A DNA stretch of 64,000 nucleotides. Source: Muricea muricata (Eukaryota > Cnidaria > Anthozoa > Malacalcyonacea > Plexauridae). The first letter of the stretch is position 1. Each line of letters begins with the position of its first letter. Positions 3,325 to 60,650 of this stretch are shown one piece after another. The position numbers and the translations under genes were made by a program. Location: contig OY979716.1 of assembly GCA_963855995.1 (NCBI GenBank), forward strand, positions 26,217,418-26,281,417. The letters are read 5' to 3'. The notes below the pieces were generated by a model that saw only the letters and a list, made by a program, of their open reading frames with translations, was not told the DNA's origin and made no database searches.

Positions 3325-6300
3325 ATGGCAGAGAAGGCGCCCGAGGCTGCTGGGCAATGTTTAATTCATTTTAAAGGTGAAGGAAAAGGTGCGCTTACCC
3401 GGTTTACCGAGACATCTTTCAAAAAGATTTCAATAAACCATGAACTTTGGCTGTCACTGGATGGTGAGCAACAAGAAATTGCCACGAAATCAAGCAGTAT
3501 ATTAAAAAATATCCAGAGCACCGAAGAGTCGTTGCCAATGATTCAGGGTTTCTACTACCACCGTAACTACTATGCAAAATTTACAAACGTTAACTACATC
3601 AAGCGTCCTCAGGCAAGGTGTTCGAAACGCCAAAACGATGGAAATGACAAGGACGTTCCAGCACAGAAAACTCTAAGATCTTCAACAGCAAAAACCACTT
3701 CAGTCAAATCTCGAAATCTGCAACTTTTACCACCTGTTTGCATAATTTTTAAACAGGAGAAGGGATATTTTACTGAAATAGTAAGCACTTTTTTACATCC
3801 AGTTATTTTTTATTCTTTATATCCTGTGCCGGTCTATCCAGGCACTTTCTAATTAGGAAGAGTACACTGTGATTCTGCGACAAATCGATATAATCAATTT
3901 CCTGTAATTATTAATTTTATAGGTTTCAAGAAAGCGCAAAGTAGACAAACTGGTATCCGCGGAAACTGTCGATGGTGGAATGCTTCGAGAAGCAGCAACC
4001 ATGAAAAATGACCAGCGTATCCTTAGGCATATCTTAGACGGTGACTTTAGAAGTCATGTATCACAAACGCTGCTACGAACGTTATACTTAATCAGTTAGG
4101 CACATCAGTCCTGAGAACGAAGAAGTCAAACACGAATTGCACAACTACAAATATCGCAAGTCCTTTGATTTGTTTTGCGCTTTCGTGCAGCACAAGTTGG
4201 TGGAAAATGAAAGAATATATTACACGACAAGGCTCAAACATGAATTTGTGATGAAAGTAAAAAACACCGAGAATGATGACGCGTCAAATTTTAAAACCTG
4301 TCGTTTATGAAAGAGGCTACAAGAGAGATTCACCCAGCTTGTGTTCCACAAACCACACTAAGGACGAGAAATTGTATATGCAGAAAAGTCAAACTACAGT
4401 TTTGTTGCCGAGAGAGCGTTAGGTGCTGAGGATCAAAGCGAGTTGGATGAAACGGATGACGATGAGGAGGAAGAAGATCTTCTAGACGACACAAAGCTGA
4501 GAAAGGAAAGCCAAAAGGTGACGATCAAAGATCTGTATTTTGCTGCATTGGAGTTAAGAAATAACATTCACAGTAATAGTGAATCGTGGTATAAGCAGTG
4601 GCCTTCAGCAGCGTCTGATATAAGGGGCGAAATTGTGAGAAAAGTTGTTTCTCCTCTTCTTTTTAATTTCATTTCGTGGTTACTCGGATATTCGGATGAG
4701 CTGCAGGAATCAGGATATGTTGACATGGATGAGGAACTTGCCGTCAAAGTATTTTCTGTCTGCCAAGATCTCGTTTACAACAGCAGTAAAGGAAGAAGTC
4801 AGACGCCAAAATCTCTTGCGATAGCAATCGCCGTAAGGCAGCTCTCTGGATGTTCTGATGTTATTCGTATTTTGAATGGATTAGGCCATTGTGTGTCTTT
4901 ATCTTCCACCTTGAGTTATGACACCGCTATCGCACAGTTAGCCTTTGACAAAACTGACATTATTACCGAGACAGTTTATAGCTAATGAAGCAATCAATTT
5001 AGTATATCACAACATAGATTTTGGGGAAGACATCAAAAAACAAACGGATGTTACGAGCGGCATTATCACCCGGAAGATCACATCGCAGAATCATAGCAGA
5101 GAAGCACAGACATCTAGAATAAGTAAGTCCCTGCGTTCTTTGAAAGTACCTCAGTCCGATGTTGTACAGTTTAGCATTGGAGTCAAGAAAGCACCCAAAT
5201 TTAACGACGAAGGACAAGATGTAGTTACGATCATGGCTTCACGTGAGCTTGCCTGGAAAATCGACTTAGCATATGTTTTGGCGAGGTTGCTACCCTTAGA
5301 TAATGATATTCTTTCTGGATGGACAGGTTTTAACACCAAGCTCTGTGAAAATAGTATCCCCGTTGTTTCAAGAATAGGTTATCTTCCTGTTGTCGATGCA
5401 TCTCCAACAGAGTGCTCAACGATAAAGACAATTCTCGAAAGAACCTATGCCATTACTGACAAGTTGCAGCTACGTTATGCTACATTGGTGTTTGACGAAG
5501 CCGTTTACTCAAAGGCGCAACATGAAAGATGGAAGAGTGATCTGTTTTATAACCGTTTTGTTGTGCGATTGGGAGAATTTCATGCCGTCATGTCGCTTCT
5601 GTCCGCGTTATCGAAGATTTTTGTAGATGGAGGTTTGAGGGTAAGTTATTAGCAACAATATATGTCACCTACCATAATTGTAACTGTCTATTAATATCAG
5701 AACATTAAGTAATAACATCTACATTTTTTAGGATGTGTTTGTCGAATCAGGGATAGTAAGCGAGGGCTCAGTCAAAAGAGTTTTGTCAGGGAAACATTAC
5801 AACAGGTCGGTACTTTGCCACAAAACCGTGTACGAGGCCTTGGAACGTCATCGATTTGAAGCATACCTTGACACTTTGGAGGACGAATCTCGAGGACGCA
5901 TTCTTTCGCTCACCATGGACTTGCGAGACTCGTTTCACGAAGGGAAATTTCATGAATATGTGGAAAATGAACTGTTCCATAAGCTTTTCCTGGATTACGA
6001 GATGTTCGTTTCTGAGTCGTCTCGAGAAAACGTTTGCGTACTGGAGTATGTACATGAAAATGGCAGGTAAGAAGTGCTTCATAATTTAGCGCGCAGACGT
6101 AGTGGGAACCAATTTGCAAAAATTTCACAACAATATTTGTTTCGCAAATTCAGCTAATTTAATAAATGTTGTCCTTTCAAAAGCGTAAACTGTAAACCAT
6201 GAGCGCCCAATAGATGACGGGCTATTGCTTATTTTCACCTGTAAACTCGGAACTATTTCTTCAAACAGCATTGAGGGCGCATAGGAAACTTACGATGGCT

Positions 6301-7545
6301 AACTTACAAGCTACAAAGGTAATTCCCTGGGTATTTGGACCTAAATAAACAATAATCAGCCATCCCTTGTGCGCTCATAATTCACAGTTTACGCTTCTGG
6401 AAATCATTGAATTAGCTGTATGCAAAACTAATTATCTTCTTTTTCAGGAATACTTCCTACGTTGATACGAGCCACAAGAGAAGTTGACTGGGAACTGGAT
6501 CTTTCCACATTTCGGTTGATGATTCCATGGTTCTTCGCTTGTGACAAAATCAATTACGCCAGATACGGTTCCGCCTACTGGTTGGAAATGACTTCGTTGG
6601 AAACAACCCATCCAGGTTTGTTCTATTTAACAATACAGGGACAAATTATCGTGCAGCGTTGACATGGCTCTCATTATAAGCAGAATTATTCCTTCATTGC
6701 CTTATCATCTTCATTTTTTCTTAAATTTTGAGGAATCCTCCCCGACATATCTTCTAACTTCTCAGTTCAACAACAAAATAATAACGGTTTTGCTGTAATA
6801 GCGTGCGATCAAACCATCGAGCAAACAGTCAACCGTGATTATTCGAAGACAAAAGGTGGTTTGATTGGCATTTCTATGAACCCCGCTGCAGTCCACAGAT
6901 GGTTACTATCGCAATCAGAGAGAGCTGCAATCACAAACCAATGTAAATCTATGTCTGGAATGAATGGTAAATCACGGTACGTACTCAACTACGTAATTCG
7001 AAAAAATACACAGTTTCTCATTTCGAGCACTCGCTAAATACTCATGTATATTTTATTTGTTATTATTTTTAGAGAAAGAAAAGATCTTGATGAGAGCAAG
7101 CGCCTAAATTATGAAAAGTCTGTTTGTGATGTTATGGCCAACATCTCTAGCATGGCAAATTTTTTAGTTTCAAATCAAGCAGAGCTCGTCTGTATTTCCA
7201 GTGGTATTAAAGTCCAAACTGACGTTGCTGACAATGTCCTGCAAGCTGAACAGCTTGGTGAGCATCAGTTCTCTGAATTATGCCAACACAACTTATTTTC
7301 TGACAATCCAGATGTTTTCACGAAATTCAAGAAAAATAAGCTACAAACGTTTCCTTCTAAAAAGCTGACGGCGAGTCGAGAGACAGCAAGGGTCGACAAG
7401 TAGCAATGAAGACAAGCAGAGATCTCTTTGCTAGAGTGCTAATTTTGTCAAAAACTCGCGAGATCAACTAGGAAGAACTGCTCTCGTATAGACTGAGCGA
7501 TTATCCACTTTCGCTGGCGACTGTATCGGGAGGTCTAGTGAAGAC
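3325..7545 (+). pseudogene. Broken copy of the YHxxCY / PIN-like / CXC-tail gene, 5' part
   Basis: A multi-exon paralogue of the intact gene at 55291-60650. Exons by splice site and frame: 3325-3780, 3923-5640, 5732-6066, 6448-6615, 6766-6976 and 7073-7545. Matching landmarks include a first YHRxxY module (about 3565-3590), a second YHKRCY module (about 4057-4075), the GWTGFN...IGYLP block (about 5320-5390), RLGEFHAVM (5568-5595), GKHYN (5790-5805) and DQTIEQTVNR (6806-6840). The copy is dead. There is a frameshift near 4050, stops near 4088 and 4305, a frameshift near 4975, a stop at 7401-7403 and a stop near 7469. It has more introns than the intact copy. The frame ends where a ~15-kb insertion begins, and its 3' part resumes after 22612. 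Confidence 0.8.
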
Positions 7546-7554
7546 AGCAATATT

Positions 7555-7877
7555 TACGTTTCAACTTTTTTTTTACGTTTCAACTTTTTTTTTACGTTTC
7601 AACTTTTGTTTTACGTTTCAACTTTTTTTTACGTTTCAACTTCTTTTTTTTACGTTTCAACTTTTTTTTTTACGTTTCAACTTTTTATTTTTACGTTTCA
7701 ACTTTTATTTTTACGTTTCAACTTTTTATTTTTACCTTTCAACTTTTTATTTTTACGTTTTAACTTTTCATTTTTTTAGTGAGGTGAAAATTTTTTCAGT
7801 GAGTCAAAAAATTTTTTGGTGAGCATAGACCATGATGCTTTGCGTCTTAGTATCAAGTTGCAAAAATATAGCTCAGA
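7555..7877 (+). repeat. Left terminal inverted repeat of the giant element (subterminal array + TIR core)
   Basis: About eleven tandem copies of a 19-22 bp unit with constant core TACGTTTCAACTT and variable T-rich spacing occupy 7553-7770. A non-repetitive TIR core follows, up to ATATAGCTCAG at about 7867-7877. The core matches the complement of 21883-22080. The open frames running through the array (reading FYVSTFYFYVSTF-like) are an artefact of the repeat. Confidence 0.85.
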
Positions 7878-8330
7878 TTTCCACCGGAAACATACAAAAA
7901 TTACCAAAAAAAATGACAGTAACACGCAAAGTATTGAAATGTGTTTTGTAAAATGGCAGCGAATTCTTCCTACGTAAGACTAATATGCAATCGATTTTGA
8001 CTCATATGTTGTACTCATATTTACAAGATCGTATAAAAACTTTTGCAGATCACAATAATGTTTTACGTGGGAAGTGCTCTACGTGCACATGCACCCAATA
8101 TTCATTGAAGAAGGCATCAAATGCATGTGGCAAATGTTGCCATCCTGCGAGTGTTCATGTAAGACAGCCATCACAAAGTTACTTTCTTTTTTTACATTAC
8201 AGGTTTTTGTAAGCATTGTCTAAAACATTAATTATCTTGTATAAATAGTTAATGAGAAGTGGGTGCAAAGATGCAGTTGGCTGCAGCTGTAAAGAATACG
8301 CATATGTCGTCAATACGGATGACTGTTATA

Positions 8331-9897
8331 CACTGCGACTCACGATATTAGTGAGAATACAAATTCGTGTAACAATAAACGTTAGTAAGCGCTTTGATCT
8401 TCCCGAAGTTATGAATTTTTCAAGTGGAATACTGGAAGCATGTCCTCAATGTTTACATTCGCTAAGTCACGTGATTACGGAATTATCGAGGCTTTCTATA
8501 TAAAGGGCGGTCCACGATAATAGTTTTTCTAGTTGAGTATGACCATGAGACGCCGCACAGATCTCACCGACGATGAAAAACGAATAATTGTAAAAGAATT
8601 AGCAAATGCAACAACCCCTGAAATGATTGCAAGCAAAATCAATCGTCATGTCGTTACAATGAACAAGTTTGTGAATGATCCTTTGAAGAAGAGGAAGATC
8701 CGCGCTGATTGCGGGTCCAGGAAGTCTGTTTCAAAGCGAGACTTAAATTCTTTGAAGAGAAAACTACGAAAACTACCAGGAGCAACCAGTGCCAGAATAT
8801 TTAAAGAAGCTGGTGTACCAGACATTTCTAAAAGTGCACGAAATAGAATTCTAGCAAAGATGGCCGAGACCAAATGTCCAAAGAAAATTCCTTTACTAAC
8901 GAGAAGACATAGGACCTTGCGCATCGATTGGGCTAAAACATACATGAAAACAGATATATATGAAATATGTATTGTTTACAGATGAGTCACGAGCAACATT
9001 AGATGGCCCTGATGGTTGGTCAAGAGGATGGGTCATCCGTGGCGACCAGTGTCCAACAAGAATCATACGTCAACAGGGAGGAGGTGGAGTCATGCTACGG
9101 GCTGGTATTGTCGTGTAAAAGAAGGTGTTAAACTAACATCACAAACTTACTGCCAGTTTCTTAAGAGCTTTCTTGAACCATGGCTTGAAGACGTCCCATT
9201 GTCACGTTTGAGAAACCTGATTTATATGCATGACAATGCTCCCTCTCATGCCGCTAAACCAATAACTCACTACTTGGAGTCAATTGGTTTTAAGAACAAA
9301 ACAATGATGATTTGGCCTCCTAACTCACCAGATCTAAACCCAATAGAAAACTTATGGGCAATCGTTAAGCAACGAGCTTATGCGGTTGGAAAGCAATATT
9401 CTTCAAAAGATGCATTGTGGGAAGCCATAAAACAAGCAGCAGACTCTATACCAAGATCCTTGATAAGAAAACTTACAGAATCAGTGAATGAAAGATTGTT
9501 TGACATTTTAAGACTTAATGGATCTCACGTTGGTAAATGACCTACTTTCCTTTGCTTAAGGCGCTGTTTTTTGTATTGATAGTTAACTACATGTTAATAA
9601 TGTTGTGAGAACGTTGTTAACTTCGAAGTATGTACCCATATAACGATTAATAATTGTGTTTGATAAGCAAATTTGTTTTTTTCCAATATACAAACTATTA
9701 TTGTGGTTCAGGTAAAAATGAAGAAAATTAATAATTAAACTGTTTTGTATTATCTTGAATGCGTCACACGTTTTTTATTCATCTTAAGTATAGGTAGGCT
9801 CCCTGCATAGCCTCTGTATAATTCTCCCTACAATATGCAAATTCACTGGTTTTTTATCCCTAAGTTAGAATTTTCACTAATATCGTGAGTCGGACTG
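8331..9897 (+). mobile_element. Tc1/mariner-like element with TA target duplication
   Basis: The terminal inverted repeats begin CACTGCGACTCACGATATTA at 8331 and end with the complementary stretch at 9897. They are flanked by TA at 8329-8330 and TA at 9898-9899, as expected for the Tc1/mariner superfamily. It interrupts the second Cys/His-rich exon of the alpha-kinase gene: with the element and one TA removed, the reading frame continues directly and completes the zinc motif. It is 1567 bp and encodes a broken transposase. Confidence 0.92.
8533..9540 (+). pseudogene. Tc1/mariner transposase, frameshifted
   Basis: Three frame segments make up one transposase. The N-terminal part (8533-8965) is a helix-turn-helix region, TDDEKRIIVKELANA through RHRTLRIDWAKTYM. 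The middle (about 8970-9118) has the first catalytic Asp in LFTDESRATLDGPDGW and then QQGGGGVM. The C-terminal part (about 9118-9540) has MHDNAPSHAA and WPPNSPDLNPIENLW. Counting residues between the second Asp (HDNAP) and Glu (PIENLW) gives 37, so a D-37-E spacing rather than the classical 34. Frameshifts near 8965 and 9118 make this copy non-functional. The TIR-to-TIR layout is complete. Confidence 0.9.
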
Positions 9898-9899
9898 TA

Positions 9900-10190
9900 C
9901 TTGTGGCCATCTTCTTAAAGACCATATCGGTTTAGGAAGAGTGTCTGTGTCAAGTGGTGAGTAATTAAATAAAACGTTTTAAGACAACTATAAAGCAACT
10001 CTCAACAAAACCCACTATAGCAAATTAATAGTACATATGCATAACCTTGAACCATTCGTGATGCATTAATATCATGTAATCACATAAACATGAATGCAGG
10101 TCCACCCAGTGGAGGGCAGGCAATAGAGCTATTTGCCATAGGTTTGAGTGGGCCCAAATAGCCCAAAATTTTACAAAGGAATAGGAAGTG
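9900..10190. other. Intron of the alpha-kinase gene
   Basis: After the rejoined exon 2 ends at a GTGAGT donor (about 9956), the sequence is intronic. A possible short exon near 10101-10131 (CCACCCAGTGGAGGGCAG) fits a phase-1 frame, but its downstream phase does not match the next exon, so I do not call it. Confidence 0.4.
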
Positions 10191-10195
10191 CTATA

Positions 10196-10979
10196 CAGAG
10201 TGTATCAAAAAAAAGTAGACAAATCTGAAATCGCTCTCTGCTCCGCGAAGCGCCTCAATATACGATGTTTCTTTATTAAAATAGATTGTTTTGGTACTTA
10301 TAATCTAGAATAAACTGAAAAAATAAGAAATTTAACACTTCAATACCCGGGGGGGGGGGGGGTTCTGTCTTTTACAGCAATATAAATATGCCTTGCGCAC
10401 AAAACTTAAATGCTTAAAAGTAATTTTGACTTGGTAGATGGAAAATTTGTCGGGTGTTGTATTGCTGAACAAAATTTCAGAAAATTTGCTCGAGTCTAAG
10501 CCGTTCAAAACGTCACGCGAACTTCCATATTTTTAGCAAAATTAGCTTTGTGCATGTTTAATCTATGTATTTACTTAATTTGCATACAACTCCCAAGGGA
10601 CATTTAATTGAAATTGGAACATTTCTTCAGAAAAACAATTCTTATTGAGAAAAAATATACGTTTGCACGACGTTTTGAGTGGCTTAAACTCAATCAAATT
10701 TCTTGAAATTTTGCACAGCAATAAAACACCTAACATATTTTCTACCTACCAAACTCAAAATTACTTTTAAGCCCTTAAATTTCGTGCGCAAGCCATTTTT
10801 AATGTGTTTCAAAATACGCACACCTCTGGGTTTGAAACATTTAAACTTCAGAATATTTTCATTTATTCTACACCGTAAGTACCCAAGCAATGTACATTAA
10901 TAAAAAACTTCATACTTCAAGCCGCTTCGCGAGGTTGAGAGCCGTTTCAAAATTGTCTACTTTTTTTTTATACACCCTG
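10196..10979. mobile_element. Palindromic mariner-type MITE (CAGRGTGTATMAAAAAA ends)
   Basis: The ends CAGAGTGTATCAAAAAAAAG at 10196 and the inverted counterpart at 10979 are flanked by TA (10194-10195, 10980-10981). The inverted similarity runs far inside: 10395-10515 mirrors about 10625-10800. The element is therefore a long foldback without coding capacity. It lies in an intron of the alpha-kinase gene. Its terminal motif is shared with the element at 43411-44592. Confidence 0.8.
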
Positions 10980-10984
10980 TATAG

Positions 10985-12160
10985 CTGGGTTTCAGTCACA
11001 AAGAATTGATATAAATAAATAATTTTTATCTTTTTCCAAGGCTCAAAAGTAAAAAGTGATGCTGGGGGTCCAAAAAGTAGGTGAAAAATAAAAGTTGGCA
11101 CAACTATTTATGTACATAGAACATTAAGTAGTCACATGTAGCCCTATTAAGCATTGATAAATGCTGCCAAGATTTTTCTTGATACAAATATTTGATTTGA
11201 TGTTTGATATATGGCATTAAAAAGAAGAAAATATACCATAATGGTTCTAATCAACACGTATGAAACAGTTCATGTACAAAAATGTAGATTGGTTATGAAA
11301 TATAATTTAAATGCTGTTTATGTTTGCTTAGTTGTTGATATGAATTTTTACATAATAGCATTTAGTGAAATGAAAGAGTATAATAAAAGAAAAAGGCAAG
11401 AGTACATTGAAGCACTCCCAAGTAAGCCAAGAAAGGCGAATTCTGCAAGAAGGTTAGAAAGGTACATTTAGTATGACTATAACAACCAGTATGCAACTAA
11501 TAGTTTTTAACATAAATCAGGGGCTTTGGAAGGACAATGAAAGTGGGGGGGGGGGATGCATACCCTGACTCAAAGAAATTTTAAACCATGTTATACCATG
11601 TATGTGAACAGCAGTATGTATATTGCACCACAGTGTGTGTATTGTAATCATGTAAGAATGGTGGATCTACTATGCTACTATAGATGCCTCTATAAAATCT
11701 TAGTTTAATACAATACATGGATAAGTGAACTCTCCCCCATAATATTTCATTTTACTTGTAACTGCATATAGTTCTAGCTACTGTAGTTAATTTTAAAATA
11801 TTTATTGTCGGTTTTTTAAACTTAGGGTTTTAGTTTATACCTGTAAATTATTCAAATTTACTTTAAAAAATCTCACACTGTCTTTACAGCTAGTGCCTTG
11901 CCCCTAAAAAGTCTTTTCTTTACGTGAAGTTTTGATTTTTAATCTGTTGACAGTGTCTTTTTAATCCCTGTTTACAAATACTGATGTCAGCAAAATATTT
12001 TTACTTTCCTAAATGAGCCAGTAATGGCAGTAGCAACCTCCATGCTATTAAGTTTTAAAATATAGATACAATAAGAATATAAAACAAAACAACCATCAAT
12101 GTTACTGGTGTTACATCAATGTTATTATATACTGCAGACTATAAAAGTGCAACTTAAAAG
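10985..12160. other. Alpha-kinase introns with one short exon
   Basis: Intronic AT-rich sequence apart from the exon at 11366-11452 (frame EMKEYNKRKRQEYIEAL, donor GTTAG) and the exon starting at 12161. A stretch starting GCTGGGTTTCAGTCA at 10984 resembles the ends of the small repeats at 19497 and 29147. Confidence 0.4.
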
Positions 12161-13179
12161 GCCAAAGTATTTGTGTGGAGGAAACAAGAAGACCTATACT
12201 GCAGATGGGGATCAAAGACAGGTTTGATTTCTTTTGTAGTTCTTGTTGTTACTAATTACACAACCATAATAATAATAGACATTAGTCACAATGAACATGA
12301 AGAATCACATGGATTGGTAATTCTGAAGCATCATTATTGTTTGTTTCTGTATGACAGCATGAAATATGAACTAGTCATTTGTCAGGCTCTAACATGGCCA
12401 GTGCTTTAGCTTTTTTTTAGAACAAACTGGATAATGACTCTACAGTTTGTTTTTTAAATACTTCCAGTGCTCTTATGTGTGGTCACCATATGCCAATTCA
12501 GTAGTTGAATTTTTTATTTGTTATATATAGATATCTTTTAACACAGCTACAACTATGGCAAATGTGCTAAAAGCTTGTGCTGAGGAATATTTAAACATAA
12601 ATAAAGCCGATTATGATGAAGAAATTGAAAATCAGGGTCTTGAACTGTTCTTACTGGATGGAAAAGCTGTGGTGAAGGACCCTTCATTTATTACTTACCA
12701 GAAGACTAGTTTTAGTTTTGTCTACATTAAGGTAGATGGTTAATTGTTGTTTAATAAAGATGAAAGTTACATAAAGGGCTAATTCTTTGGGATAATGTTA
12801 AAGAGATTGATGCCTATCACCTGTGTTTTTTAACCTCCCACAGAAAATATTTAACAGCAGACGAACTCAACTTAACACAACTACTGTACAACCCAACTTA
12901 GTTTAAGATTGTAATGCTTAATCTATCATCTGGCTAAAGTACTGTACTGTACTTACATGCTTACAGTACAGTAGCTCTTAACCTTGAATGAACTTGGCAA
13001 CAGTAAACACACTTTTCAATGTTTTTTTATAGAAAGAAGAACACTCCTGGGGTAGCATTAGCAGCAAATCATCTGTTCAAAGTAGCACAAGTATGCAAGC
13101 AGGAAACAAAAATACTACAGAGCCAGAGGATGACAATGTCAGTGTAATACCTTTATCAAAAACAGAAGGTACAGTGCTA

Positions 13180-13345
<166 letters not shown>

Positions 13346-13389
13346 GATATGTTACGAAAAGTACCATATATATGACTGGAACTAAAAGA

Positions 13390-13713
<324 letters not shown>

Positions 13714-14092
13714 TATTCATTACATAATATTTTTTTCTATTAATCTCAGTTAGGTTATCTTTGGATGATGTCTTGAGGTGTGGCAGATCAATGATTCCTC
13801 GAACTATAGAAGAACTTGTAGGAATAGGTAAATAGCTATCAATAATTGGTTAATCAGTATGGAACTTTTTTGTAACATAAAGTAAAGTACGTGCTCTAAG
13901 CACTAAGCTATGGATATTGAAATTTGGCCATGCTATTTGGTTTACCACTATATTTAAATGCTATGTTTATATAAAATTTTATGGAACTCTTAATGAAATT
14001 GTTAAATTTGAATAAATTAACCTTAAGGCTTTACTACATTTCTTTGATTTCAGCAGGTGCTCGTGGTCTTACATATAGCTTTATTATTATTA

Positions 14093-14764
14093 CAGTCAGG
14101 GACATTTTCAAGCACCTTTCTACTACCAGTTCATGGTAACAAAAACTCATTCTTCAATTGAGTTTTCAAACTCAATCTTCCCCCATAATTTTTTCACAGC
14201 TTCTCTTAGCTTTTACACGAAAACATTTGACACAAATTCCAATTTCTCCAAGAGGCAGCTACTTTGTTTTCACAGGTGATAAATATCATAGTAAGCACGA
14301 ATACAGCAGTGAGTCATTGTGTACTCCCAAACAACAGAAAAACATCCAGTAAAACTTGAGATTAGCAAGATGCAACTTTTTATGTATATATAGCATAACA
14401 TGATAATGTTACTCACTGCCAATTTGTTTTCTCATTAAGTGTTCACATGTTTTATATAAAGTAACTAGTACTTTAAGGTCCTTCCCTATTTATGTTTGAA
14501 TGGAATGGAGTGCCCCCCACTTCTTTCTGAAAAATTTCAGATTCCCCCATTTTATCACCCATCTCCTCCCCTCCCATAAGTAATGAACAGTCCCTAAATA
14601 TACATGCATTTAACAAATTTACTGAAGTATTCTCATTTGTTGATTTGTTGAATCCATGAAAAGTCGTGCCAAAGTGCGGACTGAAAATACATTTCTTTCG
14701 TTCAAAACTCAATCTTCTTCGAAAAACGGTAGTAGGCAAAAATGTCTGGAAATACCCCTGACAG
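14093..14764. mobile_element. MITE with TA flanks and CAGTCAGGG/CCCTGACAG ends
   Basis: Starts CAGTCAGGGACATTTTCAAG after TA (14091-14092) and ends ...ACCCCTGACAG before TA (14765-14766). Subterminal TCTACTACC and AACTCAATCTTC blocks are also mirrored. There is no coding capacity. It lies in the intron between the phase-1 alpha-kinase exons 13750-13827 and 14796-15056, which join correctly once it is spliced out. Confidence 0.75.
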
Positions 14765-15056
14765 TATGTATTAATCTTTACTGTGAATACTATAGGTGAT
14801 ATTTTTCAAGTATCAACGTTTGCTGTTCAAAACAAATCATGGACCATACTTGGATATATGAGATTAGATGTTGAAGAGAAAGAATTTGGTCATGGTGGTA
14901 TGAGAGTGGTAAAAAAGGCCATAGTTAATGAGGGTCTCGATCATCCCTGCTGCGCAAATTTGCACGTGGGACAAGTGTTTTATTAAAAAATACAAAGAAA
15001 CAGTTGAAAACGCAGCAGAAGCAGCCAACAAAACTATAAAGTCTATTGCAAAAAAG

Positions 15057-16403
15057 GTACAATACGTTAAGATTCAGTAAACACTTTAAACAAAAATTGC
15101 TTAAAAAGGTTTTGAATGTAGGCTATTTAGTCCCCGAGCCAACGGCGCGAAGCGCCGTTCCGGGCGTAAGCCCGGGGCGAGGGTTACTAATTTCGTATTA
15201 GCGGAGTTCAAAGTCGTTGCTCGTGATAGGTAGTAAAAGTGGTATGTCCTCACTGATCTCAACAATATGGCGGATTATCATGAATGGCTAACACTGATTG
15301 GCCGGATTTAAAATTTATTGTTGATTGATTAATCACGAATTCAACTGACAGCAAGCAAATATCTAAATTTGCTTTTTGCTTTTCAATATTTTGTATTTTT
15401 GCAAAAAGATTTGGCAACTTTCACAACCAACGAAGGGTGGTCATTTATGATCTCAAGAGTATGGCGGAATATCAGGAGTAGCAAACACTTAAGGCATTCA
15501 AAAAGGCGAGAACTGAGACGAAAACGACTGCGACAAGACTCTTGAAGAGAGATTAACTCTGGGAAAATACACAGAAGCGCCAAGAATTGACTACGGCGTG
15601 AAACACAAGGCAAGTTTGTTGATAATGCGTATTTATACTTGTGTTTTAATGCTTTATAAGGGCCGGCGTAGCCGTACTCCTCCAGTCTATTCACTGTTTA
15701 AATTCCAGAGTAAGTTTATGTTTTGTATTAAAATGCAAGACTGTCTTCTTATTACTGCATTTCAAAATATTGACGAAGTTTACATGTAAAAGAATATGAG
15801 CGAAGATACAAAATTGGCTTGAAACGGTTTTATTTCAAACTCAAAGTTTATGTAGATAAAAATTTAGTTTCATAGATATTGCAAAACGTCTAATATATGC
15901 AATTAATAGGTCGTATTTTATACCAAATTTAAGCTTACATTAGGCGTAATAACATACCGATGACAAATGTTGTGCCATTTTAAAAAAATGTCAATAAAAC
16001 AAGGATTAAAAACTCAATATTTTGTCATTTTGAAAAAATATACAGAAAGAATAACAATTGCCGTGTTGCTATGACAACAACCTATAACAGTACTTCATGT
16101 AATTCCGTAAATATAGTTGCATGCTCTTAGTTAGTGGCGAGGGGTTGCTGCATGCATGTATTTCTAGTAGTTTTCTAATTTATCATTTTACGTTATGAAA
16201 CTTGCTGAGATAGTTGAAGCAACAGGGCCATGCCGTAGCAAGGACGTTAATTAGAGGGGGGTTATGCTATTCATATATTCATGTTCTGGCAAGCGAATTT
16301 CTTTTAATATCAAATTCAAATTTTAAAAAAAACATGATTATGTATATGAATGTACCCCCCCCCCCAATGCAAAATACTATAGATGCGAATTCATTTTTTG
16401 GAG
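15057..16403. other. Alpha-kinase intron with repeat debris
   Basis: Holds a GC-rich island (15128-15190) of small palindromes such as GGCGCGAAGCGCC and CGGGCGTAAGCCCG, unlike the AT-rich surroundings. Two imperfect direct copies of a ~40-bp stretch containing TATGGCGGA lie at about 15255-15295 and 15450-15490. Near 16235-16370 is a short element whose start resembles the MITE near 41445 (CCGTAGCAAGGACGTTAAT, then a G run). No coding exon is supported here. Confidence 0.5.
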
Positions 16404-17543
16404 AAAGTTGAAGCCCAAATGGTGTGCCGTTCATTGGTTGAACAGTTCTGTCAGACACACAAGGACTCTCTAACCCAGTTTCCAGAGTAAGTAAAACTTT
16501 TCTGTAATGGACTATTGCATTGTGAATGGAGAGAAATATAGCCCACGAACTGCCATACTGATGTACACATACTTTACATGAAAATTATTGTATAACAATA
16601 GGATCTTAGCTATTGATGAAAGAACAAACGTCATATATATGTTGGAAGAAGAACTCCAGGGGAAGTTTGAAAAGTACATGGGCAATGCTGGTAATATAAT
16701 TGGTACAAGCGAAGGTTTACCTGCATCGACATGTTTGGCACTGGCTCATTGGTCATTAATTTTCAGCAATCGCAATTTTATGGTTACTGATTTGCAAGGT
16801 ACAGCAAGCAGTCTGCAGTTAATTGTAACAGTTTAAGTTGTTTATTATTGTAACAGTCAAAACATTATCCAAACTGCAGAATCTCATAACAGTTACAGTA
16901 CTATTAATAAAACCTCTTTTTATATCTACGTTTTGCACATGAACTACCTGACGTGTAAACTTTTTGCTGTAGGTGTGGGTTTTAAATTGACTGATGTTGA
17001 ACTGGCAACAAAATAGAAAGGGTATGGTTTCTTTTGGAGCTAATGATGTCATTTGTTAACTGATAATGTATTCATTGAATTAAGACTTACCTGAATGATA
17101 GTTTGTGCAGATAGATGTATGCCAATTGTATGTGTATTTACAGATATTATGGCATAGGCAATGTTGGGCACGAAGCGATAAAAATGTTCGAAGACACACA
17201 CGTGTGCAACAATGTTTGCCAAAGCCTTCATCTACCACCATTAGTCACTAATGGTAAGTTATTTTTGCTTTGGCGGTATTAAAAAACTGTTACAGCCAGT
17301 TGCAGGAAGGTGTCTATACAGTAGAACTATAATCAAATACATACTGTTCCTCTTATTTTCGTACAAGGAAATCTAGGTAGAAAAGTGTGTATTAAAACAT
17401 TTTTTTTAAATTTGAGTAATGTGCACATTACTTTCTTAATTTATTTCAAATTGTACATGTACATACTCTGATTTTTACATGCTTGGCTCTTTTTAGATAA
17501 AGGTGAAAACAATCCAATATCTCAGAGTCGCTTCAGTCTGTAA

Positions 17544-18470
17544 ATATTGAAATAGTTGAAAATTGTTGCACTTATTTAGCACAAACTCTATTGTTATATT
17601 GGTTTTGTTAATGTTAATTGAAGTACAAATTTTACATATGAAACAAGTGCATTCATGCATACAAATTTTTAAGCTCAAAACAGGCCTAATGCCAATTTCA
17701 CCATAAACTGATTAAAAACTGTCATACAGATTGTCCCAATAAAAGGTAATCCAACTTTAAGTGACTTTAAAAATTTCTGTTAATCGTTTGTTCGCCTTGG
17801 GGAATTTAGCTGAAGATTTTGAAAATAATTATCTTGTTTCCCTTCACGTGAATGCAGAACTTTGGACGTTGAACTTAATGTTAATTCACAATCTTTAAGC
17901 AAACTGGATTGTTTCATATGATAGATACTTAGTTTTACTTGTTATTTAATGGACTGTTAATTGACAATTGTTCTTCTACTTTTATTAAAGTAGTGCCACT
18001 TAATAGTTAAAGAGCATATGACACCAAACTTTATACTTTGGAATCAGAATTCTTTGTGTGGTGATGAACGCAGTATAATTTATTTTTAAAAGGCACGATG
18101 CTGAGAGACTACTTGAACGTTGTAATATGTGGCTGTGGGATAAAAACTGTTCCTGTGTCCCATTCATTGGAACTAATTTGCACCAAACTGATGCCATAAT
18201 GCAATTTCACTCTCAGACAAAGGGCATTTCTGCCTCATCACCACATATTCCAATGCTTAAATAGTTCCCTTGGCATTGTGTTTTTCAAAAATAAATAACA
18301 CTACAATAATCACCACACAAAGAATTCTATGATTCTAAAATATTAAATTTCATGTTATAAACACTTTTAAAAGCTTGGTTTTTCCAACTGTTATTCTTTT
18401 CAATACAGTGAGTATTAAACAACCCACAGTTTGATTACCTTTCTTTGAGAAACTTTGTATGTTATTATGT
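17544..18470. other. Interval between convergent genes, with a foldback MITE
   Basis: The alpha-kinase stop (17541-17543) and the integrase stop (about 18471) face each other. Arms at about 18025-18100 (containing CAGAATTCTTTGTGTGGTGAT) and 18270-18350 (the inverted counterpart) define a small palindromic repeat. Nothing coding is seen. Confidence 0.55.
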
Positions 18471-19494
18471 CTATAAGTTCATATCCAAGTACTGGACAAG
18501 GCAAGTGTAAACTTCTTTTGCATTGTTAATATTAATTGGTTCGTTCACAAATTCGTCAGCTAATCCAATAAGTCGTTCATGGTCAAAGAAAATGGTATTG
18601 GCCTGTCAAATCCATTTTCCTCTTTAATAACGTGAATGTCTTCATCGAATGGTTGAAACCCTGCATTACGAAAGCCTTTAAAAAAAACATGAGATTCAGA
18701 CATTGATTGCAATGGAAACATTTGCACATGGTAGAACAATATTGTATGTTATAAAACTATGTGAACGTAATAAATTATCTTAGTTAAATTGTTTTAACTT
18801 TGGAACTTTTAATGCATAATTAGCACTTTAATATAATTACTATACCAAATTGTTCTGGGAATGCATACAAATCTTCAGGTAAATCCTGTGGAGTTTTTCT
18901 GTCGTTTTGTTTCCTGATTCTGTGACTGTTATATGCTGTAACAAACCAGGTCAACTCATTTCTAATGAGTGGCATGTACACATAACGAAGACACAATCTG
19001 AAAAAAAACAGTAACAGTACAATACTACGGTAACAAGTGCATATGCGTCACTGAATTGAAATGGAATGTTCAAAGACATACATGTACTTGGCAAAATGCA
19101 GTTCTTAAACTTCCTTATAAAGTTCACTTACTTATGAAGTTCACAATCTTGCTGGAACAAGCCTTGTTGTTCAAGACACTAAAACAGATAAACATTTCAA
19201 TAAAGCATCTTTCATTTTTCACTGTGTCTCCATACTATTACAACTGGATTGTATTCAACTAGTACCTGAAATTCTGACTCCCAAAAACCAGTGTGATGAT
19301 CCCTTTGCTGCCTCCAAAATCGCTCAATTCTCTATACCGGTATTAAAAAAACAACCAGTGATCCAAGAATAGTTCAAAGTCTCTGGATTGACTGTCCAAG
19401 AATAGTATAGCTTCTGAACTGACTTGTCTGATGTGAATTTTTGCCACTCACCAACTGCATGGGGTAATTTCTTAAAAAATTCTTTCTTAGTGTA

Positions 19495-19700
19495 GGTATG
19501 CAAGTTTCACTCAATACTTGTATATAGAGAAATGAGATCAACATTACGCATATTGCCACTTTAATCACTTTAATTGCCTTGCCGAAACTTCTACTTTCAA
19601 TCAAGCTAAGCTCAATAATAATGAATTATTCACTTGACTGTTGACTGTGCTTTTATTTAGAATTTTTCCAAATATCACAGGGTTGAAACCCAGCTACATG
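19495..19700. repeat. Small MITE in an integrase intron
   Basis: A ~200-bp unit starting near AAGTTTCACTCAATACTTGT and ending GGGTTGAAACCCAGCTACA. It shares its interior (TACGCATATTG, CTTTAAT) and end motif (GCTGGGTTTCA) with 29147-29380. It lies between integrase exons 6 and 7. Confidence 0.55.
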
Positions 19701-21033
19701 TGGTACTATTCATTCAACTGAAAAGAGGTACTGGTACACTTGCTTTTCATTAAATTAACTATGACCAATATGACTCTAACCCATACCTGGTTAAGCATGG
19801 AAGTACCATAAACATGACTTTTCTCCCCAGCCAGGCTATCCTCAAAGTTTTGCCGAAGAAAGGTCTGACATGTTGCTAAACTACCATTTTCAGTGCCTGC
19901 ATCTGTTCTTGTCAATGCTGGTATTACTATATATTACAACATTTAATTCATTATTCAATTTTGGGCTATTTCAATAAGGGAATGCATAATGCAGAAGGTT
20001 GGTATTACACATAAGTTTAACCTTTCTTTTAGGTAGAGTACTTAACTCTTAACCTTTCATGTAAGATAAATAAATTCACTATACAGTTCTCACCATGATG
20101 ACTGCTGAGGTAATCGTAGTAGTACTTTGCTATGTACCACGGATCGTTGTTCGTCTGGTCTACATGACACCATAAATCTTCTACGAAAAGCCATCAATAG
20201 CACCATGGATACAAAACCCATATGGCTTCAACTTGTCGTGGCCATCGATGTGCCAAATCCAGTTACTATACTACAATTTTTTTTTACTTTATTTAGAACC
20301 AATAAGTTTAAATGCCAAAATAATATATAAGCTATGTGTTTATCATTGTTGCCATTACCACTGATACATAGTCCCGTCTTTGGAGAACTCTGTCTCTTCT
20401 CATTTGCAATCCATCCGGGTCTAAGTATTTCATTGTTTCGTACACATCTTCCCTTTATTTCAACTAAAAAATGGTAATTTAATTCTGTATTTTTAATATT
20501 CAAGAAATCTAAAAAAAATATATGTTTACAAAAATTACTATACAATGACATAAAAACAGTCACATATATACCTCTTTACCCTCAAATTGTACTTTTGACG
20601 CAAATGCTGATGCATGCGTGTGTAACCAATTTTTTGGGCAGGACCATTTAGTTCATTCTGATTAATAAAGTAAAAACATAGTTTGACTTACATGTAAAAT
20701 AAAAAACTTAACTAAAAGACTATAAAAAAGGGATGTCAAACTGCACAAAACTTGGATGCCAAAAAGCTTGTTTGCCATTCTCTTTTCTGTTGATTTCACT
20801 TTCATTGCCACTGCTTAGGGTAGAATTACCTGATCACTTTCAACTGCATGATATCAACTGAGTTTCCACCAAATTAATCAGTAACATTCTACATAGATGT
20901 AGGCAAATAGGCAATGGTCGGTCATTCATTAAAGTAACTCACTGAAACAGCTTCTATGACATCCATTGGTCCTATGAGTTCATCATGTCTTCTAATATTC
21001 ATTGCTTTTAAACGTCTTTTCAATGTGGATAAA

Positions 21034-21830
21034 CTGTGAAGAAACGAACCATGAATAATGACGATGCAATAAAATTATGGGCAAAGAAGCCATAACTCAC
21101 TATTAGCTAGGCTTCCTCATTTCTAAATATTAATTAATGTGAAGTAGTAATAAAATCAATTAGAAGTACACTGCTCAGGTGCTGTGGAACCCTTATCCAC
21201 CCCTATGTTTTGATGAGATGCCTAAATTTGTTTGAGAGGGGCATGGCTGCCCTGTATAAAAAATTTCAGCCTCTTCACTTCCAAATGGCTTTTGTGGCCC
21301 CTGTAATTAAATACTTAAATGCCCAGTTCTATACATTTGGAAGTGCATGTAACAACAGTTATTGGACTTATTGAGGGTCGATTCACGTTGATGTGATCAT
21401 AAACTTTAAGTTCTATTTATATCATTTTCTAATGACATAAATTTTTAAATCCTATCCTTCTTCTGTGAGGTGGGGCACTCCACATCTTGAAATAGTAGCT
21501 ACAAATACAATTCAGTCAAATCTACATTTGAAATTGTGACCTTAATTATTTTAATGCTTCCCAAGCATTTTCCAATTTATTTATTATTTACTAATGAAAC
21601 AAATGATATTTTATAAGTTCTTACTATTAAACAGTTTCTACCTCCAAGTACATCCATATTCACTTTCTAAATATCTTAATAACATTTTATTTGATTTCAT
21701 TGCGTTGACCATATCTTTAAGACGCGCGTACATCTCTACAACATTTTATTTACAATTTGCAATTACTGTTTCAATATAAAAGCGAATGCGTATGTAGGTT
21801 TTACAACACATTTAATATTTTAAAAAATAC
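21034..21830. other. First intron of the integrase gene
   Basis: AT-rich non-coding sequence between integrase exons 1 and 2; no structured repeat is evident. Confidence 0.4.
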
Positions 21831-21882
21831 CTTGTGATACATCGTTGAAAAGTTCGCCAACTTCCTCCATCTTTAATGGTTT

Positions 21883-22633
21883 CTGAGCTATATATTGCAA
21901 CTGGATACTAAGACGCAAAGCATCCTGGTCTATGCACACCAAAAAAATTTTTGACTAGCTCACTGAAAAAATTTTTTGACTCACTGAAAAAATTTTTAAC
22001 TCGACGAAAAAAAAAATCAACTGTTGGTTAAAAAATGTACAAAAAATTTTCACCTCGCTAAAAAAATGAAAAGTTGAAACGTAAAAATAAAAAGTTAAAA
22101 CGTAAAAAAAGTTGAAACGTAAAAAAAAAGTTGAAACGTAAAAAAAAAGTTGAAACTTAAAAATAAAAAGTTGAAACGTAAAAAAAAGGTTGAAACGTAA
22201 AAAAAAAGTTGGAACGCAAAAATAAAAAGTTGAAACGTAAAAAAAAAAGCTGAAACGTAAAAAAAAAGTTGAAACGTAAAAAAACAGTTGAAACTTAAAA
22301 AAAAGTTGAAACGTAAAAAAAAAGTTGAAACGTAAAAAAAAAGTTGAAACGTAGAAATAAAAAGTTGAAACGTACAAATAAAAAGTTGAAACGTAAAAAA
22401 AAAGTTGGAACGTAAAAAAAAAGTTGAAACGTAGAAATAAAAAGTTGAAACGTAAAAAAAAAGTTGAAACGTAAAAAAAAGTTGAAACATAGAAATAAAA
22501 AGTTGAAACGTAAAAATAAAAAGTTGAAACGTAAAAATAAAAAGTTGAAACGTAAAAATAAAAAGTTGAAACGTAAAAATAAAAAGTTGAAACGTAAAAA
22601 TGAAAAGTTGAAGTGAGCCTCCTGGGCTTCCAT
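21883..22633 (-). repeat. Right terminal inverted repeat of the giant element
   Basis: Complement of the left terminus. The TIR core (21883-22070) is longer than its left partner because of internal AAATTTTTT-motif duplications. It is followed by about 27 tandem units with core AAAAGTTGAAACGTA (22069-22612), against eleven on the left. The repeat core includes the coding part of integrase exon 1 (minus strand). Confidence 0.85.
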
Positions 22634-22639
22634 AATATT

Positions 22640-23749
22640 CGCAGCAAGGATCAAAGCGTCCCCAAACAGTGGAAGAAATATATGAGCTGTGGTAAGAACA
22701 AGGAGCCGTTGATCGTATTTTTGTGTGAATATTGGAGTACGTACAAGTCCTTGCGTCTATGCGGTATACGATCTATGTGCATCACATCAAAGGATAAATG
22801 CTACTTGTTAACATCTGAATCTTCCCCGAACGATTGCGTTTTACATCATGAAGTTTTTCAACTTCACTGTGATCATGAAGAAGCTAATACACGTTTACTT
22901 CTTCATTCGAGGCATGCAGCAGAATCTCACGATACCATCATTGTTAAATCCCCGGATACGGACGTGTTTTTGCTTTATATTGCCATGAGCAGGACGATTG
23001 GCAAGAATCTATTCGTGATGGCAGGGACACGTAGCTGATTTCGAATCATAGATACTTCAGCCATATCCGACGCTCTTGGAGAAGAGCTATGCTCTTGCTT
23101 GCCTGGATTTCATGCCTTTTCACCTACATAGATGTTTTCTACTGCATGTATACGTAGCTGGAGGAAGTACAAAATATTATAACAAGTATGATATCTTATA
23201 TTTTGCTAGGTTGTGACTCCACAAGGGCCTTTTGCGGAAAGGAAAAGCGAAACAACAGAAAATACTTCAAGAGAATCCAAACTTCGCCAAAAGTTTCTGC
23301 GATCTGGGAAAATCGTCTACACCACCAGAAGATTTTGTCATCTCGCTGAATGTACTTGTTTGCTTGCTATATGGCAACAAATCTTCAAGAACTGTAAATG
23401 AGTGTAGATATGTCTATTTAAAGCAGGGAAATGCTCAGACGAGTCTCTTCCTCTGACCTGTGACAGCCTGCTGAAACACATCGAGAGAGCGAATCTTCAA
23501 GCAGCTACATGGAAACGTTGTTTATCACCCCAGTTACAACTTTTCCCCCCAGTAGGCAATGGTTGGAAATTATCAGATGGACAACTAGAGGTTCTCTGGA
23601 TGACTCGTCCCTCCGCACCTGATTCACTTCACGAGTATGTCGATTGCAAGTGCGAGACGGGTTGTGGGACACAGCGCTGCTCCTGCCTAAAAGTGGGCTT
23701 ACCATGTACTGACTGTTGTGGTTGCGCAAATGTACCATTCCCCAATTAG
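22640..23749 (+). pseudogene. Broken copy of the YHxxCY / PIN-like / CXC-tail gene, 3' part
   Basis: Resumes the frame cut at 7545. It carries KQWKKYMSCG (matching KQFKKYLSDG of the intact copy), HCDHEEANTRLLLH (matching KQEEADTKMFLS), SPDTDVFLLYIA (the nuclease-like acidic block), LPGFHAFS (23098-23120) and GCDSTRAF after a probable intron with acceptor at 23210. The tail has LEVLWMTRPSAPDSLHEYV and a Cys-rich CKCETGCGTQRCSC block, stopping at 23747-23749. Lesions: a stop at 23036-23038, a frameshift near 23235 and another near 23430. Relative to the intact copy, about 85 codons around the insertion point are missing. Confidence 0.8.
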
Positions 23750-55290: not shown

Positions 55291-56918
55291 ATGTCGGAAA
55301 AGACGAAAAAAACTTCTTTAGAAGTTAAGTTGAGTTTAACACCATCAAAACGGAAAAAAAAGCTCCAAAAGACCAAATGCATCCTTAAATGTAAGCTTGA
55401 CAAGGATGAATACAGTATCAGGTTTAGTAAAAAGTCGCGAGAAGCTGTTTATCGAGCTGCACAAATTCGGAACGATGACACTGTTATTTCCATCCTTGAT
55501 TCCTTTGGGGAAGAGCTACCCTCAGTTGATTATGGATATCACAGAAAGTGTTACCAGAAATACACCAATAAGCGGCTGTTAGAAAATTTAAATGAGGAAG
55601 TCATCGAGCCTGAGGAAATCGTCGAGCTTGAAGAGCTTGAAGCATCGACTTCTGCCGAAAGTATCTTGCAAACTCCACGTACCTCGTTAAGAAAAAGAAG
55701 TCGTCAAGGTAAAGCTCTTGCGTTATAAATGTCGTATATTGCCTAGGTTTGTAAAAATACCAAGATAGACGGGCTTTAAAATTTACCGTACTATACTTCT
55801 TCTTCTGAGCATTTAACCGTCGGGAAAAAATATTGTTAAGGCGTATAAACATAACGATTTGTATCGTACGATTCGTATGCTGGCGTATGAAAATTTAACT
55901 TGAGTGTCCGCCTTAGTAACGAAAATTGGTGTCACACTACAATTCAATTGTATTTAGTTTGTGAAGAGATTTGAAATGCAGTCAATTTTCGTCTGCTCAG
56001 ATTATATACGCCTAAATGCAAATCATGTCCGACAAATTGTTGTCTGTATATGTACCCTAACAGTAAAATCGTCATGATGTAGGAAAAATTTTGGCTGATC
56101 ACGAGTGCTGCATCTGTACAGCAAAAAAGACAGCGCGAAGTGGGAGTGGATATGAACCGTTAAAAAAGTGCGTTACGGAAAATGGCGCAGAAACATTGCA
56201 ACAAGCGGAAAACGATGACGAGTATCCTTCTTTACGAGCTGAAGTTGCTGGTGTTGATTGGCAGACCATAATAGCAAGAGAATATCACTATCACAAATCT
56301 TGTTACAAGAAACTTTCCAAAAAACGAACACCAAAGAAGATAGCAGTCGTAGATAACGTCGACGCAGATCTAGATGTAGTTTTTGACGAAGTTACAAGGC
56401 ACATCGCTGAAAAAGTTATAGATGGCTGTGAAGTCCTGCAGATCAGTGATATTGCAAAGATGTACTTGGAGATATCCAATCGACTTTCTGGCGACGAAGA
56501 TAATGTTGTTTTGATGACGAATCACAAATTAAAAGAGAAAATTCTAAATTATTTTGGGGAGAAAGTAGGATTCTGGCGTCCATCGCATGGTAGCGAATTG
56601 GTGTTTAATAACGATATCGAGAAGGGAAAGTTGGTCGAAATGACCGTGAGAGCAAAACTGGCAAACCGAAAGTGGGAAGACAAAACGCTCGAGGAGAAAA
56701 CAACAGAAGTCGCGCGAGCAATCCGAAAAGAGTTATTAGAAATTCCAAACACTTATAGCAGGTAAAATGACTTGAAACCACATTTTTCTTGAAACAAGCA
56801 TACAAAGAAAACTGGCGTCATTCTTTAAAATCTTGTTCTCTTTTATCTTTGAACTTCTCTGACATGTAAAATCCGTTCATCTTGGCGAATATTTTTTCTT
56901 CCCATTTAGGATACATGT

Positions 56919-56981
<63 letters not shown>

Positions 56982-59900: not shown

Positions 59901-60650
59901 ATCTACTTCAAAGGTCGATTCCAATGTGACCTTTTTGTAGAAATTGGTTCGAAAAGCAAGAAACGAATTCTGTCAGTTACTAAGATTTTTGATCACATTG
60001 GAAAAGAGATGTCCGACACCCTTCCAGCTTTGCATGCAATAAGTGGCTGCGATTTCACGAGTGCGTTTTATGGAATTGGAAAGCAAAAGATGTACAAGAT
60101 TGCAAAGAGTTATGATCGTTTCAAAGAGGCTCTGTCGAAGATAGGAGACAGCGTTAATTTTGATTTGAATCTTTTTCCTGTAGTTCAAGAGATGATCGCA
60201 GAATGTTATGGTGTTAAAGGCTGCAATAGTATCAATGACGCACGTTACAGAAAATTCTGTTCGAAAGCTAAAGTACCTGATCCACAACAACTACCACCGA
60301 CTGAAGACGAACTACTTCTTCACTGCCAGCGGGCCAATTACGTTGCCAAAATTTGGAAGTCTGCGTTAATAGCTGATGCTAATCTTCCACACCCAGCAGG
60401 ATATGGATGGCGTGAAGTAAATGGTTTACTGGAAATAAAGTGGATGAGCCAAAAACCGGCACCAGATTCTTTATTAGAGTTTCTAGCTTGTGGCTGCAAA
60501 AAATCAGGCTGTCAAAACAACCGGTGCCTTTGCGTTTCGAATGGATTAAGTTGCACAGATTTGTGTGATTGTACTACATGCACAAATACTACACCAGATG
60601 AGGATGATGTCAATGCTCGTTTTGAACAAGATGAGGAAATAGATGACTAG
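55291..60650 (+). CDS. 1586-residue YHxxCY zinc / PIN-like / CXC-tail protein (intact)
   Basis: Exons 55291-55708, 56083-56761 and 56987-60650 join in phases 1 and 2 at GT/AG sites: 1587 codons without a stop. Two N-terminal Cys/His modules end in YHRKCY (about residue 83) and YHKSCY (about 207); the second begins ECCIC. A long middle region has NWTGFNYLICG, IGYLPAINQSPTS, LRLGAFHTM, FKGKHYNN and DQAIEQTINR. Around residues 1326-1385, TVDSDVCILSIYF followed by LPALHAISGCDFTSAFYGIGK resembles the acidic and helical motifs of PIN/FEN-type nucleases; this is inference from pattern. The tail (about 1533-1567) is Cys-dense (CGCKKSGCQNNRCLC...CDCTTC), like CXC/tesmin zinc domains, then acidic. A broken paralogue lies at 3325-7545 plus 22640-23749. 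The TIR-bounded location suggests an element-encoded, possibly mobility-related, DNA-binding nuclease. The function is otherwise unknown. Confidence 0.85.
56932..56974. repeat. (TA)n microsatellite in intron 2
   Basis: About 25 TA units just upstream of the exon 3 acceptor TTGTTGTTTTTAG. Confidence 0.95.

Follow-up and report, generated by a model that had tools for sequence, protein, structure and literature searches.

IS3EU DNA transposons have TA..TA ends, usually generate 6-base-pair (bp) target duplications, and share a common lineage with GingerRoot; the transposase of both is an integrase-like Asp-Asp-Glu (DDE) enzyme without the HHCC zinc domain (PMC10045372). The word kinase occurs 0 times in the accessible text of that paper, so no kinase is given there for IS3EU/GingerRoot at large. 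A 2025 paper describes fungal families termed TET+ IS3EU, known from rusts and Tuber, in all of which the transposase and alpha-kinase genes lie in opposite orientations with a TET/JBP gene between them (PMC12730594). The rust elements have TAYGG..CCRTA ends, 6-bp target duplications, and inverted repeats over 30 bp. In the portion of this paper available, two sentences link the alpha-kinase and the transposase; the TET/JBP dioxygenase is read as an escape from methylation-based silencing, and TET/JBP genes are said to be handed passively between transposons of fungi (PMC12730594). The element considered here lies at positions 7,546-22,634 of a 64,000-nucleotide stretch (the window) from the cnidarian Muricea muricata (assembly GCA_963855995.1, contig OY979716.1, positions 26,217,418 to 26,281,417 of the forward strand; source genome 453 megabases).

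This element is a decayed DNA transposon with two convergent genes, an alpha-kinase on the plus strand and an integrase-type transposase on the minus strand. It is probably an autonomous IS3EU-type (IS3EU/GingerRoot) transposon with two genes, present here as a dead copy, in which the kinase serves as a helper. An earlier note on this DNA knew of no described element with such a pair, but the pair is already in print for the fungal TET+ IS3EU (PMC12730594, in its accessible text) and is not itself new. What is added is that three families of a single animal genome have it with no TET gene detected, which argues that the kinase belongs to the element. The main parts of the window copy are:

7,546-7,877, plus strand: left inverted terminal region, a tandem array of a ~20-bp unit (TTTTTACGTTTCAACTT) and then an inner inverted repeat
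7,985-17,252, plus strand: alpha-kinase gene, in 11 or more pieces matched by tblastn with a manually built model
near 8,040-8,330 and 9,893-9,955, plus strand: two Cys/His modules of the kinase (by eye)
11,364-11,462, 12,531-12,731, 13,021-13,167, and 13,749-13,829, plus strand: middle pieces of the kinase
14,792-15,062, 16,401-16,487, 16,603-16,815, ~16,976-17,018 (by eye), and 17,154-17,252, plus strand: catalytic pieces of the kinase
18,556-21,870, minus strand: IS3EU-type integrase/transposase gene, ~10 exons by eye
~20,267-20,092, minus strand: exon with a catalytic D (WHIDGHD)
19,918-19,787, minus strand: exon with a catalytic D (RTDAGTEN)
19,331-19,266, minus strand: exon with the catalytic E (RIERFW)
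21,882-22,634, minus strand: right inverted terminal region, comprising the inner inverted repeat, 27 array units (counted with up to 2 mismatches in the core), and the terminal tip ...GTTGAAGTGAGCCTCCTGGGCTTCCATA

By sequence, the first gene encodes a true alpha-kinase. The window kinase matches PF02816 with an expectation (E) value of 4.3e-25, well over the curated cut-off, and the closest solved structure is the TRP-related kinase 1ia9 (chain A), at E 4.8e-15 for the window kinase and 5.2e-14 for the kinase of a second family, C. Other solved-structure relatives are Dictyostelium MHCK-A and eEF2K; ALPK1 is also among the PDB matches. Three diverged families in this genome (A, which includes the window copy, C, and D) retain three features in their kinases: the region of the ATP-site lysine (FIKKY / FVVKRY / LVVKEY); DLQG; and the zinc ligands (H...HxC...C, as in the H...HxCxxxC of the alpha-kinase family). 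The roles of these residues we take to be those worked out for TRPM7. The catalytic domain is thus that of 1ia9, eEF2K, and MHCK-A, whereas the genes here are transposon-encoded, and the window's family has two Cys/His modules on the N-terminal side. A Pfam scan of the family C kinase frame returned no channel, calmodulin-binding, or WD40 part.

The Cys/His modules had been proposed as a constant part of the partner kinase. The compact family C kinase frame contradicts this: it has no Cys/His cluster, and the stretch before residue 230 contains just 3 cysteines, scattered. Such modules are therefore not common to all of these kinases. The Cys/His search pattern was narrow, catching a single copy (L023) and missing two that have tblastn matches (L013 and L022), and its silence on family D is uninformative. 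A single-sequence AlphaFold model of the family C kinase was unusable (mean predicted local distance difference test score 37.6).

The second gene matches PF24764 (rva_4) at E 7.5e-33, again well over the curated cut-off. Its D, D, and E residues sit on separate exons and are present in the integrases of the window, C, and D; no zinc domain is among its Pfam matches. Its remaining matches are weak. The sole NCBIfam match, NF033516 (transpos_IS3), covers the helix-turn-helix (HTH) at E 0.0013 (18 bits vs a cut-off of 160); two HTH_21 matches (E 0.03 and 0.017) both fall below threshold; and PDB sequence matches to known integrases reach E 0.15 at best. Scans of viral contigs gave 6 pattern matches with the kinase frame and 29 with the integrase core alignment (2 sequences), with 0 confirmed in either.

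Both genes lie between long inverted terminal regions. The core TACGTTTCAAC of the ~20-bp unit has 9 exact copies at 7,555-7,712 and, reversed, 20 exact copies at 22,073-22,586; across the whole window no copy in those orientations falls outside the two arrays. Inside the arrays lies the inner inverted repeat, 355 bp at 81%. The right tip is intact, reads ...GGGCTTCCATA, and closes at 22,634 with ...GTTGAAGTGAGCCTCCTGGGCTTCCATA, an identical tip being found at other genomic copies. The right end of the window copy is CCATA; its left end is lost, and the outermost left tip (TATGGAAGCCC...) is missing.

Much of what the earlier note proposed for this architecture stands: the long inverted termini; the convergent, many-exon kinase and integrase; and the D, D, and E on separate exons. 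Other parts need correction. The limits of 7,555 and 22,633 become 22,634 on the right and, with the left tip missing, 7,546 for the start of what remains. A count of exactly two genes holds for the kinase-integrase pair but missed a nested Tc1-like element at 8,329-9,899. The giant length of ~15 kilobases (kb) is indeed the span of the window copy, but it is inflated by nested inserts and long introns, and two complete relatives measure only ~5.1 kb. A further 30 frames of at least 60 amino acids (aa) inside the element, chosen by leaving out AT-repeat frames and a few overlapping ones, gave no match to any Pfam family at E 0.01.

Relatives in the same genome were sought with window positions 7,000-8,000 as the query, which gave 49 matches; 40 of the 49 candidates were scored. 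The stretches read around matches (20 + 2 + 3 + 2), joined where adjacent, make 21 places besides the window. This sample is small and was picked by terminal sequence, and its counts are not a census. Integrase catalytic sequence is present in 7 of the 22 places (window, B, C, D, E, F, and L035), and kinase catalytic sequence in five of those seven (window, B, C, D, and L035). In all five the kinase points at the integrase. Kinase catalytic sequence without an integrase was found in 0 of the 22 places read.

These copies fall into three families. Family A comprises the window and B, which are 94.6% alike over 5,373 bp, B retaining only the last kinase exons. Family D is 46-65% identical to the window in the kinase and 36-65% in the integrase, by stretch; family C is 27% identical in the kinase and 24-44% in the integrase. 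The two copies of family C, C itself and L035 (also called G), are ~5.1 kb each and 98.5% alike at aligned bases, indels aside. Each has a stop-free kinase frame of 429 codons with the first Met at codon 6. On these sequences the pair occurs in three families of one genome (A, C, and D), and the association is not an accident of one locus.

Copy C was found by luck, because its integrase intron contains a family A piece. A terminal fragment of the window's family lies in an integrase intron of compact family C at ~4,880-4,995 of L020. L021 shares that fragment's tip and flank, and L035 is collinear with C across the fragment, which, being shared by the compact-family copies seen, was probably inserted before that family spread.

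The ends of family C are complete. Copy C has TATGG...CCATA ends, CAACAC on both flanks, and inverted repeats of 248 bp at 93.5%. L035 has the same TATGG...CCATA ends, flanks GATCAC/GACCAC (5 of 6 bases), and inverted repeats of 238 bp at 81.5%. These two copies dispose of an alternative in which a host kinase and an unrelated integrase came to lie by chance between inverted repeats at one locus. The window copy might have suggested such nesting, since it is heavily rearranged and has lost its left tip. In C and L035, however, the same gene order and orientation are enclosed by complete ends and flanked by target duplications, and D shows them once more; chance nesting is refuted, and what probability it retains is negligible.

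Four further two-ended copies (L011, L012, L023, and L024) contain neither kinase nor integrase catalytic sequence, as expected of internal-deletion derivatives. Derivatives of this sort keep the ends and first exons: integrase exons in L011, L012, and L024, and kinase exons in L013 and L023. They must have been moved in trans. Termini without the kinase, which the earlier note had named as a refutation of the partnership, do therefore exist, but these copies are equally without integrase catalytic sequence. One of them, L023 (G000:C4:17035400-17040700), is a 2.4-kb element with the kinase 5' exon, including the Cys/His module, inverted at both ends, apparently a fold-back derivative formed from two left ends.

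Across the six two-ended copies, an exact 6-bp duplication is found in two (C, and the deletion derivative L012, with CCATAC on both flanks) and a duplication at 5 of 6 bases in one (L035); an exact 6-bp flank match is expected by chance once in 4,096. The flanks of L011 (G000:C1:20966500-20973500; ends 2,185 and 5,148) are ATATAG / CTATAT, which are 6-bp reverse complements rather than a direct duplication.

Taken together, the TATGG...CCATA ends, the 6-bp duplications, and the kinase partner fit what has been printed on IS3EU and probably place the element in that kind. The superfamily at large offers the same TA...TA ends, 6-bp duplications, and DDE transposase without an HHCC zinc domain (PMC10045372, in its accessible text). 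The likeness to the fungal TET+ IS3EU extends to an IS3EU-type transposase opposite an alpha-kinase and, in the case of the rust families, to TAYGG..CCRTA ends, 6-bp duplications, and inverted repeats (PMC12730594, likewise). Unlike those elements, in which TET/JBP stands between the two genes, the window element has three frames of at least 60 aa between 17,252 and 18,556, with no Pfam match at E 0.01, a scan that short exons would escape. In copy C the gap between the two genes is only ~700 bp. Two more differences are the long tandem arrays that serve as terminal regions in the window's family and the host, the cnidarian Muricea muricata.

Other transposons with an integrase-type DDE transposase between inverted repeats are Polinton/Maverick, Ginger1, and Ginger2. 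Polinton also makes 6-bp duplications (PMC10045372, in the text available), but was rejected as a candidate: none of the 30 further frames has a Pfam polymerase, protease, or capsid match. Ginger1 and Ginger2 differ from the present element in their 4-5 bp duplications (PMC10045372, as available). A separate superfamily near but outside IS3EU/GingerRoot, such as a Ginger relative, is a very improbable home for the element. Membership was judged by features, and the weak PDB integrase matches, the weak IS3 HTH match, and the family D right tip would all suit such an outlier. Against it, the TATGG..CCATA ends, the 6-bp duplications, and the kinase partner match what is printed for IS3EU in the available parts of PMC12730594 and PMC10045372.

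Several results weigh against the reading of the element as a two-gene IS3EU transposon with a helper kinase. The assignment to IS3EU was made against printed descriptions of ends, duplication length, and transposase type. Half of the six two-ended copies (L011, L023, and L024) show no 6-bp duplication. The family D right tip ends CTTCAATA (CAATA) and departs from CCRTA, and its left tip was not found; the CTATA right tip of L022 is another exception to CCRTA. No kinase accompanies integrase fragments E and F within the 15-16 kb read, and both sit within or beside retrotransposon frames. In the C-family copies, a stop-free frame is shown for the kinase alone. Finally, recent change looks close to neutral: the kinases of C and L035 differ by 5 synonymous and 15 non-synonymous changes (ratio of non-synonymous to synonymous rates, dN/dS, 0.8), which neither supports nor excludes recent selection; and the integrases of the window and B differ at 20 codons with an amino acid change and at 9 silent ones, and that of B has a premature stop. 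Such neutral-looking change within families is as expected of copies after insertion.

Between families the pattern differs. From the window to D, the fractions of differences at codon positions 1, 2, and 3 are 0.33, 0.28, and 0.57 for the kinase (177 codons) and 0.31, 0.19, and 0.49 for the integrase (234 codons). From the window to C, they are 0.56, 0.46, and 0.65 for the kinase and 0.50, 0.42, and 0.66 for the integrase, values near saturation in an unchanged order. With least change at position 2 and most at position 3, both genes look selected, and appear to have been constrained over the time that separates the families.

This constraint bears on the possibility that the kinase is hitch-hiking cargo: a host alpha-kinase captured once by an ancestral element, with no role in transposition and perhaps altering host signaling. 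Alpha-kinase genes are indeed animal host genes (PDB matches include the TRP-related kinase, eEF2K, and ALPK1); compact family C does without the Cys/His modules; deletion derivatives without the kinase exist; and the accessible text of PMC12730594 offers a precedent in the passive transfer of TET/JBP genes among fungal transposons. Useless cargo should decay, however, whereas the catalytic motifs of this kinase persist in three families that have diverged from one another, and positions 1 and 2 of its codons change less than position 3; a kinase is reported beside the transposase in the fungal TET+ IS3EU as well (PMC12730594, in part). Cargo is therefore improbable.

The upkeep of the kinase beside the transposase across families argues instead for a helper role, and the kinase is probably a regular part of IS3EU-kind transposons. 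In the proposed mechanism, the integrase product would bind the terminal regions, cut the element out at its TA ends, and insert it with a 6-bp stagger; it would also move the internally deleted derivatives in trans. The kinase would be a regular trans-acting helper of the element and not passive cargo. Its most likely action would be to phosphorylate the element's own transposase or transpososome, thereby gating integration, with action on a host factor ranked next. Such direct control of the transposase or transpososome is a live possibility, put somewhat short of an even chance.

The narrower form of a helper role, in which the transposase is left untouched, is counter-silencing or host manipulation: the kinase would phosphorylate chromatin, small-RNA, or stress factors of the host (for example in translation, like eEF2K), creating an opening for transposition. 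Characterized alpha-kinases act on cellular proteins. The fungal TET+ IS3EU also carry a TET/JBP dioxygenase that is read as a means of silencing escape (PMC12730594, in its accessible text). Sequence cannot separate counter-silencing from the transposase-regulator reading, and it is rated rather unlikely. No study of the kinase's role in the transposon was found in the literature searched, which excludes most subscription papers.

It is unusual for a DNA transposase to have a protein kinase as its constant companion. The question of its role can be put to the test with the two compact copies, which are nearly identical, have complete ends, and each keep a kinase frame free of stops. A bolder and quite tentative proposal is that the IS3EU lineage had the alpha-kinase as a core gene from its ancestor onward and has kept it in fungi and animals alike, and that integration is gated by phosphorylation from the element's own kinase. 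If so, large alpha-kinase expansions would represent transposon load and not host signaling genes. The alpha-kinase family is highly expanded in rusts, with 79 and 39 entries in two columns of a basidiomycete table (PMC4469406, in the portion available). That these expansions consist of IS3EU transposon genes and not host genes is a guess, and we suggest looking for transposon ends around expanded alpha-kinase genes before treating them as host biology.

The surroundings and the inserts of the window copy record its decay, and comprise:

4,362-7,545, plus strand: left part of an interrupted multi-copy gene, matching a paralogue up to residue 788 at 7,543
8,329-9,899, plus strand: nested Tc1/mariner-like transposon, interrupting the kinase Cys/His exon, with its own transposase frame broken
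22,636-23,749, plus strand: right part of the interrupted gene, whose match to the paralogue restarts at residue 887 (22,646)
56,910-60,650, plus strand: uninterrupted 1,246-aa paralogue in the same window, the reference for the missing codons

The earlier note took the neighboring gene as proof of insertion, and this proof stands. A gene is indeed interrupted, and its paralogues are not: two of them elsewhere in the genome (L002 and L003) show ~92% identity up to window position 7,550 and then continue without the element. Relative to the paralogue at 56,910-60,650, about 98 codons are missing at the insertion. The absence of these codons and of the left tip indicates a deletion, so the target duplication of the window copy is unreadable. 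AATATT was considered as its 6-bp duplication (left ...GCAATATT|TACG, right CCAT|AATATT) and rejected, because the left tip is missing, ~98 codons separate the two flanks in the paralogue, and CCATA forms the end of the right tip.

The window copy is dead: the nested Tc1-like element lies within its kinase, and there are apparent frame breaks in the kinase around 14,950-14,980 and in the integrase near 20,176. The nested element has 30-bp inverted repeats (90%), a TA target (by eye), a DDE_3 match (PF13358, E 6e-12), an HTH_Tnp_Tc3_2 match under the curated cut-off (E 2e-4), and 2 stops in its read-through reference.

A kinase intron contains, at 13,186-13,729, a short sequence able to form a hairpin (CCTGGGTTTCACGCACTAG and its reverse), with an (AT)n array of ~150 bp on either side; this looks like a palindromic insert in a microsatellite. 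In host DNA, a BTB-BACK frame that also matches MATH weakly, together with the retrotransposon content, points to a probable animal. The interrupted gene belongs to a multi-copy family whose 1,246-aa frame matches the Cys-rich TCR/CXC domain (PF03638, E 2.6e-5) close to the C-terminus and, below threshold, DUF6589.

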